From: Bacteroidota bacterium
GTDB taxonomy: Bacteria > Bacteroidota > Bacteroidia > 2-12-FULL-35-15
DNA length: 38,873 nucleotides
Direction: 5' to 3'
NCBI GenBank assembly: GCA_947479085.1
Contig: CANJYB010000034.1
Coordinates: 1-38,873, forward strand
Positions within the stretch are counted from its first letter, which is position 1, and the number at the start of each line of letters is the position of its first letter. Below, one piece after another: positions 21,896 through 38,873 of this stretch. The position numbers were made by a program, and so were the translations under genes. The notes beneath the pieces are model-generated. The model saw only the letters and a program-made list of their open reading frames with translations, had not been told where the DNA came from and did not search any database.

Positions 21896-21911
21896 TTTTT
21901 CTGATTAATTG

Positions 21912-21974
21912 AATTTACCGATTTACCAATGTGCGGATGTAATTGGTACATCAACACATCGGTACATCAGCACA

Positions 21975-21976
<2 letters not shown>
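21912..21976. repeat. Inverted 8-base array between atpD and atpC
   Basis: On the plus strand four octamers (such as GATTTACC and GATGTAAT) are followed by one base and then four octamers of the type NNNACATC (21945-21976). The two halves are imperfectly complementary, about 23 of 32 positions. The array begins at the atpD stop codon and ends 16 bases before the atpC start. Confidence 0.7.
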
Positions 21977-25753: not shown

Positions 25754-25858
25754 TCTGATGATTCTCTACTTAAATCCGAGGATTTAAAGCTTAATTCGTC
25801 AGATTATTTACTTAAAACTGATGATTTAAGTCTTGAATCCTCAGATTTAAGTCTTAAA
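25754..25858. repeat. Five 21-base tandem repeats (each three 7-mers)
   Basis: Five contiguous units of exactly 21 bases with consensus near TCTGAGGATTTAAGTCTTAA plus A. Each divides into three heptamers in constant register. One plus-strand frame is open through all five and on to a TGA at 25883, reading as a heptapeptide repeat like SSDLSLK, but it has no start codon after the upstream TGA at 25730. Confidence 0.75.
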
Positions 25859-27638: not shown

Positions 27639-28427
27639 ATGAATTATATTTTACCTTATATACCCGAACGCCCTGCCAAACCAAGAAACAGTGGAATTAC
27701 CATGATGATGGACAAAGGTCTTAGCATCCGCCAGGTGGAAGATTTTTTGTCTGCCAATTCGGAACTGACAGATGTGGTGAAACTTGGTTTTGGCACCTCT
27801 TATATGACCAACAATATTGAACAGAAAATAAAGCTATACAAGGAAGCCGGAATGAAGGTATACCTGGGTGGTACATTGTTCGAAGCTTTTATAGTTCGGA
27901 ATATGTTTGAGGATTATATCCGTGTTCTTGATAAACTAAAGCTGGAATGTGCCGAAGTTTCGGATGGTTCCATTGTGATGCCGCACGATAAAAAGTGTGA
28001 ATACATTCATGCTCTTTCTAAAAACCATACTGTTTTTTCAGAAGTAGGTTCCAAGGAAGCAGGTATCATCATTCACCCTGCCAAATGGGTATCGATGATG
28101 AATGCCGAACTTAGTGCCGGTTCGTGGAAAGTGATTGCAGAAGCCAGGGAAAGCGGAAATGTTGGTATTTACCGCGCAAACGGGAATGCGCATACCATCT
28201 TAATTAATAAGATTCTTGCCAAAGTAAAACGTGAAGATATATTATGGGAAGCCCCGCAAAAAGCGCAACAGGTTTGGTTTATCAAATTACTTGGTGCCAA
28301 TGTAAACCTTGGAAACATTTCTTATGATGATGTTATTCCTTTGGAAACGTTAAGACTTGGACTAAGAGGGGATACCTTTTTCAGTTACTTACCTGCCGAA
28401 TTAAAACAAAAAATAAAAGTGGAGTAA
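27639..28427 (+). CDS. Phosphosulfolactate synthase-like (ComA-family) enzyme
   Basis: A 262-residue TIM-barrel-type protein matching the ComA/phosphosulfolactate synthase family: RPAKPRNSGITMMMDKGLSI, VVKLGFGTSYMT, KVYLGGTLFEAF, AEVSDGSIVMP and VFSEVGSKEAG are typical blocks. The family adds sulfite to phosphoenolpyruvate to give (R)-phosphosulfolactate, the first step of coenzyme M synthesis in methanogens and of sulfolactate synthesis in some bacteria. In Bacteroidota a link to sulfonate metabolites such as sulfonolipids is possible but not shown. No other sulfonate genes are in the window. It is followed by an inverted heptamer array and then a rhodanese gene on the same strand. Confidence 0.85.
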   Translation: MNYILPYIPERPAKPRNSGITMMMDKGLSIRQVEDFLSANSELTDVVKLGFGTSYMTNNIEQKIKLYKEAGMKVYLGGTLFEAFIVRNMFEDYIRVLDKLKLECAEVSDGSIVMPHDKKCEYIHALSKNHTVFSEVGSKEAGIIIHPAKWVSMMNAELSAGSWKVIAEARESGNVGIYRANGNAHTILINKILAKVKREDILWEAPQKAQQVWFIKLLGANVNLGNISYDDVIPLETLRLGLRGDTFFSYLPAELKQKIKVE

Positions 28428-28428
28428 A

Positions 28429-28522
28429 AAGTCACAAGTAGTAAGTATTAAGTCTAAAGTATGCTTCCGGCTTAATACCAAATACTCTGTACTTTAGACT
28501 TCGTACATAATACTTTATACTT
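28429..28522. repeat. Inverted 7-base array filling a same-strand gap
   Basis: Five contiguous heptamers of the type AAGTNNN (28429-28463), a 17-base centre, then six contiguous heptamers of the type NNNACTT (28481-28522). The arms contain a perfect 12-base inverted repeat (AAGTCTAAAGTA with TACTTTAGACTT, 28450-28461 and 28490-28501). The array starts one base after a stop codon and ends 7 bases before the next ATG. Confidence 0.85.
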
Positions 28523-28529
28523 AAACAAT

Positions 28530-28844
28530 ATGAAAGAAATAACTGTAGCAGAACTAAAACAATTAAAAGACACGAATGCTGATTTTCAATTGATAGATGT
28601 GCGCGAACCGCATGAATTTGAAATCGCTGAAATAGGAGGGGAGCTAATACCAATGGGAGAGGTAATGGATAATCTTGATAAAATTTCGAAAACAAAGCAG
28701 GTGGTAGTGCATTGCAAAATGGGCGGACGTTCCGGAGCCATTGTAAGCAACTTAGAATCCCAGGGATATACCAATGTGTATAACCTTAAAGGGGGAATCA
28801 ATGCTTGGTCCAATGAAATTGATCCTTCTATACCAAAATACTAA
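28530..28844 (+). CDS. Single-domain rhodanese-like protein
   Basis: A 104-residue rhodanese fold. LIDVREPHEFEIAEI (residues 21-35) is the usual first motif, and the active-site loop is HCKMGGRS with the persulfide-forming Cys62. The loop length fits small sulfurtransferases of the GlpE/PspE type, which pass sulfane sulfur to acceptors. It is cytosolic. Its ATG lies 7 bases after an inverted array that could mask the ribosome-binding region in the mRNA. The neighbouring gene upstream uses sulfite in its family reaction, so a sulfur-related link is possible but is only an inference from position. Confidence 0.9.
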   Translation: MKEITVAELKQLKDTNADFQLIDVREPHEFEIAEIGGELIPMGEVMDNLDKISKTKQVVVHCKMGGRSGAIVSNLESQGYTNVYNLKGGINAWSNEIDPSIPKY

Positions 28845-31879: not shown

Positions 31880-31885
31880 AAAAAT

Positions 31886-31972
31886 AATTTTAGAATTTTA
31901 GAATTTTAGACTTGTAGAATTAAATGAATCAATGTTCATTCTAAAATTCAATAAATCTAAAATTCTAAAAAT
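31886..31972. repeat. Inverted 8-base array between the arginase-like gene and argS
   Basis: Contiguous octamers AATTTTAG (three exact copies from 31886) and ACTTGTAG face octamers of the type CTAAAATT (31941-31972). TTTTAGAATTTTAGA (31888-31902) and its complement (31956-31970) form a perfect 15-base inverted repeat. The array fills the gap between the upstream stop and 7 bases before the argS ATG. Confidence 0.85.
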
Positions 31973-32917: not shown

Positions 32918-32924
32918 CTTTAAA

Positions 32925-32993
32925 AGATTTTAGATATTAGACATAAGACGTTAGATTTTACCTCTAACATTTATAATTTATAATTCATAATTT
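32925..32993. repeat. 7-base arrays upstream of the arginase-like gene
   Basis: Five contiguous heptamers of the type AGANNNN (32925-32959), then three ATAATTY heptamers (32973-32993). They lie in the divergent gap, 8 bases upstream of the arginase-like ATG. Confidence 0.75.
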
Positions 32994-33122
32994 CATTTGA
33001 TAAGTTGTTAATTTAAATTACTTACTTGTATGAAAATATATCAATGTAAGTTAGTTACTTTGTACAATATTAATCCTGATTCGTTTTTTTATTCATTCAT
33101 TCTTCAAATCTTTAACTAAAAT

Positions 33123-35342: not shown

Positions 35343-36875
35343 GTGAACTTCCTCAAAAATAAAAAATTCTATTTCCTGCTTTCCTTTATCGAAGGAAGCT
35401 CTGTGATGGCTACCGAATTACTGGGTGCCAAAATGCTGGCTCCTTACTTTGGTTCTTCCTTATATGTATGGGCAACAGTACTCGCCATTACTCTTGGAGG
35501 ATTGGCGGCAGGTTACTTTGTGGGCGGACTTATTTCGTATAAAAGCAAAAATCCTTTTACCCTGTTTTATGTTTTATTAGCAGCCGGTGCGTTTACCGTA
35601 TTGATGCCGTTTACTTCCAAAATTGTTTTGTGGGCCATTGGTATGCATAGCCTTATTCCTTCGGTTATCCTGTCTTCCTGCTGTATTTTATTTCCTCCCG
35701 TATTTATGATGGGAATGGTTTCTCCTTTAATTATTGAAACCATAACTACAGATGTAAAGGAATCGGGGAGGGCAGCAGGGGCCATTTATGCCATATCTAC
35801 TGTTGGTGGTATTATTGCTACCTTTATGTTTGGCTTTTATATTATCCCCACTTTCGGGCTTACCATTCCATCCATCATTACAGGCATAGTGCTGGGTTTT
35901 ATTCCTTTCCTTGTATTGCTGATGAAAAAGCAGGTAATAAAAAGTGCCGGTTTTTTTTTGCTTTGCTGCTGGGCTTTTTCTGTTAATTCTGCCGGTTATT
36001 CCTCCAATGTAAAAGTGGTGTACAACCAGGAAGGCCTTTTGGGTCAGTTACTGGTGCTCGATTATCCGCATTACAGCAAACATTCCACTCAAAAAGGCAA
36101 TAACCGATGGCTGTTTGTCAACCGTATTTCCCAATCCATGTGGGATTCGCTGGCGGATGAAACCTGGGGTGAAGAAAAGTACTTTCCGTATGTATATAAA
36201 ATTGAAGAATATGTGGATTCGTTCCCTAAGTCCACTCATGCTTTATTATTGGGTTTGGGAGGAGGAAGCATAGCCCGCCAGTTGGATAAAAAAGGTTTTT
36301 CGGTGGACGTATGTGAGCTGGATAAACGGATAGCTTATGTGGCCCGTCATTATTTTTATTTACCCGAAAGAGTAACTATTACAGTGGATGATGCAAGGCA
36401 TTATATACGTACCTGCACCAAAAAGTACGACCTGATAGTGCTGGATATGTTTAAAGGGGAGGAGCCACCCAACCATGTTTTTACACAGGAATCGCTGGAG
36501 GAACTGAAACTGATGCTGAACCCTAAAGGCACCATCATGGTGAATGGTTTGGGTTACCTGGACGGACCAATCGGTAAATCTATGCGGTCTATTTATAAAA
36601 CATTCATTGCTTCCGGATTTAATGTAAAAGTACTTTCCACTGACAGCGACCCCGACCAGGCCAATCTTTTGTTTTTTGCTTCAACAGGACCTCTGAAACC
36701 TGACCATAACTATATAGCCGAAAACAAAATAGACCTCAATGATGCTGTGGTGTTGCAGGATGAATACCCGGTTCTGGATATACTTAATGCCGATGCAGCC
36801 AAACGCTGGAGAAGAATGAGTATCAGTGCTTTTTATTCGGATGAAAATCAGAGGAGTTTGCCGGTGTTTAAATAG
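35343..36875 (+). CDS. Membrane-fused spermidine-synthase-like protein
   Basis: A 510-residue protein. The N-terminal part (about 1-215) has six or seven membrane spans in the pattern ATELLGAKMLAPYFGSSLYVWATVLAITLGGLAAGYFVGG, typical of fused spermidine synthase-like membrane proteins. The C-terminal part is a Rossmann methyltransferase-like fold with LLLGLGGGSIARQL, VCELDKRIAYVARHYF, VDDARHYI and YDLIVLDMFKGEEPPNHVFTQE. The polyamine-synthase Asp pair is only partly kept, so real aminopropyl transfer is uncertain. The start is GTG 35343, as no ATG is in frame and the first span needs it. The TAG stop falls inside a heptamer array. Confidence 0.78.
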   Translation: MNFLKNKKFYFLLSFIEGSSVMATELLGAKMLAPYFGSSLYVWATVLAITLGGLAAGYFVGGLISYKSKNPFTLFYVLLAAGAFTVLMPFTSKIVLWAIGMHSLIPSVILSSCCILFPPVFMMGMVSPLIIETITTDVKESGRAAGAIYAISTVGGIIATFMFGFYIIPTFGLTIPSIITGIVLGFIPFLVLLMKKQVIKSAGFFLLCCWAFSVNSAGYSSNVKVVYNQEGLLGQLLVLDYPHYSKHSTQKGNNRWLFVNRISQSMWDSLADETWGEEKYFPYVYKIEEYVDSFPKSTHALLLGLGGGSIARQLDKKGFSVDVCELDKRIAYVARHYFYLPERVTITVDDARHYIRTCTKKYDLIVLDMFKGEEPPNHVFTQESLEELKLMLNPKGTIMVNGLGYLDGPIGKSMRSIYKTFIASGFNVKVLSTDSDPDQANLLFFASTGPLKPDHNYIAENKIDLNDAVVLQDEYPVLDILNADAAKRWRRMSISAFYSDENQRSLPVFK

Positions 36876-36953
36876 GGAATAGGGAATAGCGAATAGGGAA
36901 TAGTGAATAGCGAATAGGGAATAGTGAACAGAGAAAAGTGAACAGAGAATACC
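36870..36953 (+). repeat. 7-base array (GAATAGN, 12 units)
   Basis: Twelve contiguous heptamers in exact register: AAATAGG, then GAATAGN units and degenerate GAACAGA and GAAAAGT units. The first unit contains the TAG stop codon of the preceding gene. The same unit makes the array at 38433-38523. Confidence 0.92.
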
Positions 36954-36970
36954 GCACGAGCTGCGTTAAC

Positions 36971-37005
36971 AACTCATAATTCATAACTCATAACTCATAA
37001 CTCAT
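36971..37005 (+). repeat. 7-base array (AACTCAT x5)
   Basis: Five contiguous heptamers, four AACTCAT and one AATTCAT, end 8 bases before the stop codon of the convergent barrel gene. The unit differs from that of the adjacent array. Confidence 0.92.
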
Positions 37006-37013
37006 AATTATTT

Positions 37014-37718: not shown

Positions 37719-38426
37719 ATGAACATCATAATAACCGGAGCCAGCAGGGGAATAGGTTACGAACTTGTAAAGCTATTTGCCGAAAATGCCGACTACACTA
37801 TAATTGCTCTATCCAGAGACTCGCAAAAATTGAACCAATTACAGAAGGAGTGCCAGGAAAGTTTCCCGTTGAGCAATGTTATTCCGATTCCGTATGATTT
37901 GACCGATAAAAATGCGAAAGGCTTAACAGCCGAAATAACCAAACATTGTAAAACAATTGATCTGTTAATTAACAATGCGGGACAGATTGTAAATAAGCCT
38001 TTTATCAATCTTACTTTAAGCGATTTTGAAACCGTTTATGCCACCAATGTATTTGGGGTAGCCAAGCTGATACAGGATATTTTGCCATTAATGGTTTCTC
38101 CAAAGCGGGGACATATTGTAAACATCAGCAGCATGGGAGGTGTGCAGGGTTCGGCTAAGTTTGCCGGGCTGGCAGCATACAGCAGCAGCAAGGCAGCAGT
38201 GGCTTGCTTAACCGAATGCCTGGCCGAGGAGTTTAAGGACCGGAATATTTCGTTTAACTGCCTGGCGCTGGGTGCCGCACAAACGGAAATGCTGGAGCAG
38301 GCGTTCCCGGGTTATAAAGCTCCTGTTTCGGCACAACAAATGGCGGAGTTTATTGGCAACTTTGCTGTTACGGCTCATCATTTTATGAATGGCAAGATTG
38401 TTCCGGTATCTATTTCGACTCCGTAA
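37719..38426 (+). CDS. Short-chain dehydrogenase/reductase
   Basis: A 235-residue classical SDR. The nucleotide-binding TGASRGIG (6-13), NNAG (85-88), Ser137-Ser138 in NISSMGG, and the catalytic YSSSK (Tyr154, Lys158) are all present. It reduces or oxidises a carbonyl or alcohol with NAD(P)H. Arg10 after the first glycine and LSRDSQK favour NADP(H). The substrate is unknown. It is followed directly by a heptamer array. Confidence 0.92.
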   Translation: MNIIITGASRGIGYELVKLFAENADYTIIALSRDSQKLNQLQKECQESFPLSNVIPIPYDLTDKNAKGLTAEITKHCKTIDLLINNAGQIVNKPFINLTLSDFETVYATNVFGVAKLIQDILPLMVSPKRGHIVNISSMGGVQGSAKFAGLAAYSSSKAAVACLTECLAEEFKDRNISFNCLALGAAQTEMLEQAFPGYKAPVSAQQMAEFIGNFAVTAHHFMNGKIVPVSISTP

Positions 38427-38432
38427 TTTAGT

Positions 38433-38523
38433 GAATAGTGAATAGTTAATAGTGAATAGTGAATAGTGAATAGTGAATAGCGAATAGTTAATAGTTAATA
38501 GTTAATAGCGAATAGTTATTAGC
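38433..38523 (+). repeat. 7-base array (GAATAGT/TAATAGT, 13 units)
   Basis: Thirteen contiguous heptamers in exact register, mostly GAATAGT with TAATAGT, GAATAGC and a last TATTAGC. The array starts 6 bases after the SDR stop codon. Confidence 0.93.
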
Positions 38524-38659: not shown

Positions 38660-38873
38660 CTCAGTAAAATTTAACCGCAGAGGCGCAGAGACTGGAAGGA
38701 ATATTAAAGGAGAATTTTCAAACCAAATCTCAGCGAACCTCAGCGTAAATCTCCGTGATATCTGCGGTAAAAATCTCAGTAAAATTTAACCGCAGAGGCG
38801 CAGAGACTGGAAGGAATATTAAAGGAGAATTTCCAAACCAAATCTCAGCGAACCTCAGCGTAAATCTCCGTGA
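38660..38873 (+). repeat. 115-base direct repeat, second copy cut by the window end
   Basis: Copies start at 38660 and 38775 and are nearly identical over 99 bases (one C/T difference). Each starts CTCAGTAAAATTTAACCGCA, and complementary ACCGCAGA and TCTGCGGT ends suggest a long imperfect hairpin. I recognise the motif as a widespread intergenic type (CTCTGCG...CTGCGGT). Confidence 0.88.

Follow-up and report, generated by a model that had tools for sequence, protein, structure and literature searches.

The gap between a phosphosulfolactate-synthase gene and a rhodanese gene in this Bacteroidota genome holds an inverted array of 7-base repeats, and this array is one member of a genome-wide intergenic class of degenerate 7- or 8-base repeats that lie against gene ends. 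A gap becomes an inverted array where both of its gene ends carry an outward array. The arrays evolve fast, being gained and lost quickly between relatives. Copying errors, and not a service to these two neighbouring genes, are probably behind their growth, and regulating the rhodanese gene is probably not the reason for this one. The window, the whole stretch of 38,873 bases analysed here, is contig 34 of a 50-contig, 4.28 Mb assembly; gene calls throughout are hexamer-scored ORFs made for this analysis. The array and its neighbours are:

27639 to 28427, + strand: PF02679 gene, (2R)-phospho-3-sulfolactate synthase family, left neighbour of the array
28429 to 28463, + strand: left arm, with five AAGTNNN units that start one base past the stop of the phosphosulfolactate-synthase gene
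28463 to 28522, + strand: right arm, ACTT-like cores in 7-base register, with its last base 7 bases ahead of the rhodanese ATG
28530 to 28844, + strand: PF00581 gene, rhodanese domain, right neighbour of the array

The gap is 102 bases long, with the stop codon at 28425-28427 and the rhodanese ATG at 28530, and the extent given by an earlier sequence-only reading, from one base past the stop to 7 bases ahead of the ATG, agrees with these coordinates. Exact AAGT cores stand at 28429, 28436, 28443, 28450 and 28457, spaced by 7. The right-arm register runs from 28463 to 28519, with exact ACTT only at 28491, 28498, 28512 and 28519. The cores GCTT (28463, 28470), ACTC (28484) and ACAT (28505) have one mismatch and ACCA (28477) has two, leaving eight of the nine right-arm positions within one mismatch. 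The five AAGTNNN units in exact 7-base register that had been described are therefore there, but the six NNNACTT units said to face them overstate the exact count, which is four. The array is confirmed as real and far from chance. Lag-7 identity of the gap is 54/95 against a shuffle mean of 27.6 (sd 4.5), a value reached by none of 2000 shuffles. Shuffling this gap 5000 times never produced a five-unit AAGT array, nor did one appear anywhere when 676 sampled gaps were shuffled 20 times.

We scanned 1,238,873 bases of the same genome (29% of it, window included) for period-7 or period-8 arrays scoring at least 12, with dinucleotide shuffling as the control. Period-7 arrays numbered 54 in 175,605 gap bases, against 2.0 after shuffling and 12 in 1,051,764 coding bases. 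Period-8 arrays in the same sample numbered 12 in gaps, 1.7 after shuffling and 3 in coding sequence. The two outcomes that the sequence-only reading had named as telling against it, no enrichment across the genome and equal occurrence in coding DNA, were both looked for; the arrays proved to be enriched in gaps, with coding DNA poorer in them. Stems scoring at least 13 were found in 120 of 551 gaps of this genome (6 after shuffling) and in 55 of 219 gaps of genome G032 (0 after shuffling). Hairpins in two genomes are accompanied by side diagonals offset by 7, 8, 14, 16 and 21 bases, as is characteristic of inverted arrays, and fixed criteria identified 24 periodic inverted arrays in the 551 gaps and 16 in the 219 gaps of G032. 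Within the genus, 31 of 36 genomes contain four AAGT units spaced by 7 bases, and 14 of 36, this genome not among them, contain four spaced by 8. Six of the 18 loci of the class that have three AAGT and three ACTT units lie inside an open frame of at least 100 codons.

Single arrays lie in same-strand gaps in 56 of 70 cases, an enrichment when judged by gap length (chi-square p 0.0015) and less clear when judged by gap number (p 0.075). Divergent gaps hold 6 of 70 period-7 arrays, where 18.4 would be expected by length and 12.9 by gap number (overall p 0.075). Inverted arrays occur in 12 of 98 convergent, 24 of 530 same-strand and 4 of 142 divergent gaps, and the difference between convergent and divergent gaps is significant (Fisher p 0.007). 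The proposal that same-strand gaps are enriched thus holds for single arrays by gap length but not for inverted arrays, which are commonest in convergent gaps. Other arrays in the window are:

31880 to 31972, - strand: inverted period-8 array, TTTTAGAA / TTCTAAAA, between the arginase-family and arginyl-tRNA synthetase genes
21896 to 21974, - strand: inverted period-8/16 array, a sister gap
36871 to 37007, + strand: convergent gap with an AATAGGG-like array on the left and an AACTCAT-like array on the right, both outward
38429 to 38516, + strand: single outward TAGTGAA-like array, directly past the stop codon at 38424-38426

The sequence-only reading had seen the placement of the 28429 array again at 31886-31972 and 21912-21976. 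Both are real arrays, but their period is 8, not 7. The predicted folds of these sister gaps have z -6.0 (31880-31972) and z -7.1 (21896-21974). The left arm of the latter, read on the + strand, has in part more C than G and is an apparent exception to the polarity described below. The two outward arrays of the convergent gap are different units and not mutual complements. Because they do not pair, pairing is not what sets the direction of an array. Folding gain is nil across this gap (36876-37013, + strand, z +2.4) and for the array at 32918-33122 (z 0.1).

Repeats of other kinds were also noticed. Arrays with a period of 21 or 42 bases, about 250 bases long and each with its own unit, lie in long gaps of this genome (G000, loci L020-L039; for example C1:1534-1789, C1:93872-94140 and C2:87524-87784) and at 25760-25858 of the window. 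Period-21 segments number 85 in gaps and 1.3 in shuffles. An open frame crosses 49 of 61 rows of the 21-base arrays, but a codon-phase signal appeared in only 1 of 38, so a coding sense is not shown. A perfect palindrome, ACCCCTGTCAGGGTT..AACCCTGACAGGGGT, some 40 bases long, is dispersed in gaps of G000 (for example at C5:73347-73410 and C2:267652-267726) and resembles stretches in as many as 18 further sampled gaps of that genome. A GTCATCCCGGGC-type palindrome in G032 (for example C3:40662-41044) is common to up to 34 other sampled gaps and often adjoins heptamer arrays and a recurrent TTTGCTGTG sequence. At the end of the contig, 38660-38873 of the window holds a 115-base repeat (1.9 copies, 98% match), a possible cause of the assembly break, and a 147-base tandem repeat lies at 854-1395 within the first large open frame.

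To follow the arrays between relatives, orthologous gaps were located by tblastn of the neighbouring genes; 34 genomes of the genus gave a match and 30 loci were read. The phosphosulfolactate-synthase/rhodanese pair is kept in all 30, this one included, while the gap between the two genes varies from 10 to 379 bases and is at most 40 in 14 of them. None of the 29 other genus loci with this gene pair passed the criteria for an inverted heptamer array. One (L059) is a near miss with two 8-base units, and two (L047 and L055) carry one outward array past the stop. In the relative nearest by flanking protein (G005) the filler differs, yet ACTTNNN units lie directly ahead of the rhodanese ATG. The arginase-ArgS gap was resolved in 24 of the 30 loci and is at most 40 bases long in 3 of the 24. 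It carries inverted 8-base arrays in 7 of 24 species, this one included, with units that differ and the G-bearing arm first in each. One gap can therefore retain its architecture while the letters change, or be without it. Selection for the architecture could explain why these seven are kept.

The transcript of the 28429 gap is predicted to fold into a stable hairpin (z -3.5 in one run and z -4.2 in another, beating 200 of 200 shuffles), as the sequence-only reading had expected. It had also suggested that this hairpin could hide the ribosome-binding region or end transcription. It seems unlikely that the gap transcript is such a regulatory or terminating hairpin, either ending transcription past the first gene or masking the rhodanese start. 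The strength of the fold speaks for it, as do the excess of inverted arrays in convergent over divergent gaps and their recurrence in the arginase-ArgS gap. However, the start would be about as accessible without the array: the mean unpaired probability at -15 to +10 of the rhodanese start is 0.62 when the array is present and 0.52 once it is removed in silico. Termination fares no better, as there is no terminator-like site (a G+C-containing stem followed by a T-tract) in 28429-28529 and the polarity of the arms is opposite to that of other gap hairpins. In sampled gaps of two genomes the left arm has G>C in 29 and G<C in 9 of 40 periodic inverted arrays, against 51 and 124 of 199 other gap hairpins (Fisher p 1.5e-7). 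The 14 orthologous gaps of at most 40 bases and the two window arrays with no folding gain also tell against a regulatory hairpin. The array appears to lack a function in its own operon.

Two further candidates were tried and rejected. Rfam 15 gave no match in the window at the curated threshold, so a known RNA family was set aside; three microRNA models fell below threshold in the gap region (E 0.11-0.35). Conservation of the AAGT core for reading by a protein was rejected because duplication and mutation, when simulated, left the columns just as unevenly varied. Arrays that follow a gene might also supply extra stop codons, a purpose that was considered as well.

Near gene ends the arrays show an outward polarity. 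Counted without regard to family in two genomes pooled, the period-7 and period-8 arrays that lie no more than 30 bases from a gene end have, in the outward reading, G>C in 87 cases and G<C in 10; the criteria of this count were not chosen from the data, and its entries are non-independent where copies are dispersed or two edges belong to one gap. By type of edge, the ratio of G>C to G<C is 40:4 at same-strand 3' ends, 26:1 at same-strand 5' ends, 17:2 in convergent gaps and 4:3 in divergent gaps. Of 43 period-7 arrays lying up to 12 bases from the end of a gene, 33 are G>C outward and 8 are G<C. Beyond 12 bases the rule does not hold: of 27 such arrays 8 are G>C and 15 are G<C, with 2 and 12 where the nearest gene end is a 3' end (n=15) and 6 and 3 where it is a 5' end (n=12). 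Named families, whose patterns were picked after inspection of the data, give 71 outward and 3 inward within 60 bases of a gene, 29 and 13 farther away, and 13 in coding sequence. The 28429 array fits this outward strand preference.

Three AAGT units facing three ACTT units were found in 18 of 295 genomes of the class, and the reverse order in none. TTATGA inverted arrays behave like AAGT, with one order in 2 of 36 genus genomes and the opposite in 0 of 36. The TTCA/TGAA core, however, occurs in both orders, TTCA-first in 9 and TGAA-first in 7 of 295 class genomes (backward-read controls). In the TTCA-first loci, one from each of the nine genomes, the 18 arms read outward are G>C in 8, equal in 6 and G<C in 4, and AAGT lies within four of the nine left arms. 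The TTCA-first arrays are thus not C-rich-first overall in these nine loci. Whether the short-period intergenic arrays of distant phyla have a directional rule in common, in which the G-bearing arm reads outward whatever the unit, is doubtful, and the lack of a single order in the TTCA/TGAA core weakens the idea. If true, such a rule would suggest that an unrecognised process acts at the 3' ends of genes and builds inverted arrays of fixed order; one example would be template switching with RNA-DNA hybrids as primers. The G-quadruplex reading of such arrays would then become unnecessary.

It is very improbable that the polarity is mere avoidance of G ahead of start codons, with ordinary microsatellite growth responsible for the rest. 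Array-free gaps are indeed G-poor on the coding strand ahead of starts (outward GC skew +0.16 to +0.20 within 20 bases), but their skew is slightly opposite within 30 bases past stop codons, and the polarity is absent in divergent gaps, where both edges are starts (4:3). The convergent gaps contradict this explanation: they have no start codon, and the polarity there is equally strong (17:2).

For the origin of the arrays, we give about an even chance to fast-turnover repeats grown by slippage and inverted template switching and not selected to regulate the rhodanese gene. Replication slippage would add whole units of 7 or 8 bases to a short repeat. An imperfect hairpin would result, where inverted template switching could write or refresh the facing arm, and growth would be tolerated where no promoter is broken, within operons and between convergent genes. 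We infer slippage and template switching as actual events. The enrichment in gaps, the inverted register, the turnover, the column variation, the facing-arm excess and, in divergent gaps, the deficit of arrays and the lack of polarity (4:3) all support this origin. When 83 arrays from two genomes, each with at least four units and some divergence, were compared with simulated duplication and mutation, column heterogeneity reached p<0.05 in 4 and p<0.01 in none; duplication and mutation suffice for the variation within arrays. When the match of the facing arm to the same unit was ranked against what other gaps would give, 13 of 73 edge arrays fell in the top 5%, where 3.65 were expected; the excess is modest, since a direct-repeat control also exceeded expectation (9 of 73). 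Template switching is described as making RNA hairpins, and RNA-DNA hybrids as starting such events in yeast (PMC8794818, PMC3820800). Against this origin stand the polarity, which neither slippage nor template switching predicts, and the inverted 8-base arrays kept in the arginase-ArgS gap of seven species.

The main rival to slippage and template switching is a mobile palindrome, the arms being terminal inverted repeats of a dispersed element (REP, REPIN or MITE-like) moved by a transposase. This is possible, if rather unlikely. A palindrome moved as a unit would have its arm order fixed trivially, and AAGT does occur in one arm order only (18/295 against 0/295). In one genome (G034) two contigs carry the same 54-base inverted element, although this may be assembly duplication; another (G117) has one loop common to two places with different arms; and G032 arrays adjoin the recurrent TTTGCTGTG-type sequence. 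The 28429 genome itself has five Y1_Tnp domain matches, which may or may not belong to RAYT transposases. The apparent mobility of some copies counts against slippage and template switching. However, this genome has no second copy of the 28429 element (the next match is 28 bases, E 0.0013), the polarity is common to different unit families, and a single gap may have arms built of different units, as at 36871-37007. The arrays are natural material on how intergenic hairpins arise, and a caution for annotators: a striking gap-spanning hairpin need not regulate its neighbour gene.

An intrinsic terminator is a hairpin past a stop codon, with a G+C-containing stem followed by a T-tract. The 28429 array resembles one in being a stable predicted hairpin past a stop (z -4.2, 0/200 shuffles), but its stem is long and AT-rich, it has no terminator-like site and it is absent in many relatives. 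Periodic inverted arrays also differ from other gap hairpins in their reversed arm polarity. REP and REPIN sequences are described as dispersed palindromes, short and nearly identical, that carry a GTAG or CGTC tag and go with RAYT transposases (PMC3733652). They are likewise intergenic inverted repeats, and this genome has Y1 transposase domains, but the 28429 array is a degenerate 7-base array in single copy.

The TAACTGA direct repeats reported from Beggiatoaceae, cyanobacteria and five Bacteroidetes (MacGregor 2015, PMC4679880) are also intergenic heptamers that adjoin start codons and are sporadic among relatives. As that account presents them, they have one fixed unit in 169 sets, nearly all direct and one indirect, whereas our arrays have degenerate units and inverted pairs, and TAACTGA is absent from the 28429-28522 sequence. 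A limited literature search, with preprints and most subscription journals outside its scope, turned up no account of outward-reading AT-rich arrays from Bacteroidetes.

The closest precedent is the G-quadruplex-forming heptamers of Xanthomonas and Nostoc, GGGAATC and GGGGA(C/T)T (Rehm et al. 2015, PMC4692102). These have variable positions, are mostly intergenic and within 50 bases of an ORF, and place their G-strand on the non-coding strand ahead of a gene and on the coding strand past it. Inverted pairs number 70 and 75 in two Xanthomonas genomes, few of the repeats lie between divergent genes, and length and sequence vary much between relatives. The authors studied G-quadruplex formation and are reported to have seen no role in regulation. 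Our arrays are similar in their 7-base units with variable positions, mostly intergenic placement near gene ends, outward strand preference, inverted pairs, variation between relatives and rarity between divergent genes (6/70 against 18.4 expected by length). They differ in that this genome has many AT-rich 7- or 8-base families rather than one G-rich family per organism. There is no run of three G in 28429-28522 and thus no G-quadruplex by that criterion, so at least the AT-rich version of the polarity rule needs no quadruplexes. As the best-studied bacterial heptamers are discussed as G-quadruplexes, an AT-rich version with many families separates the rule from the sequence, and AT-rich arrays with a like layout and polarity make the cause of that polarity testable.
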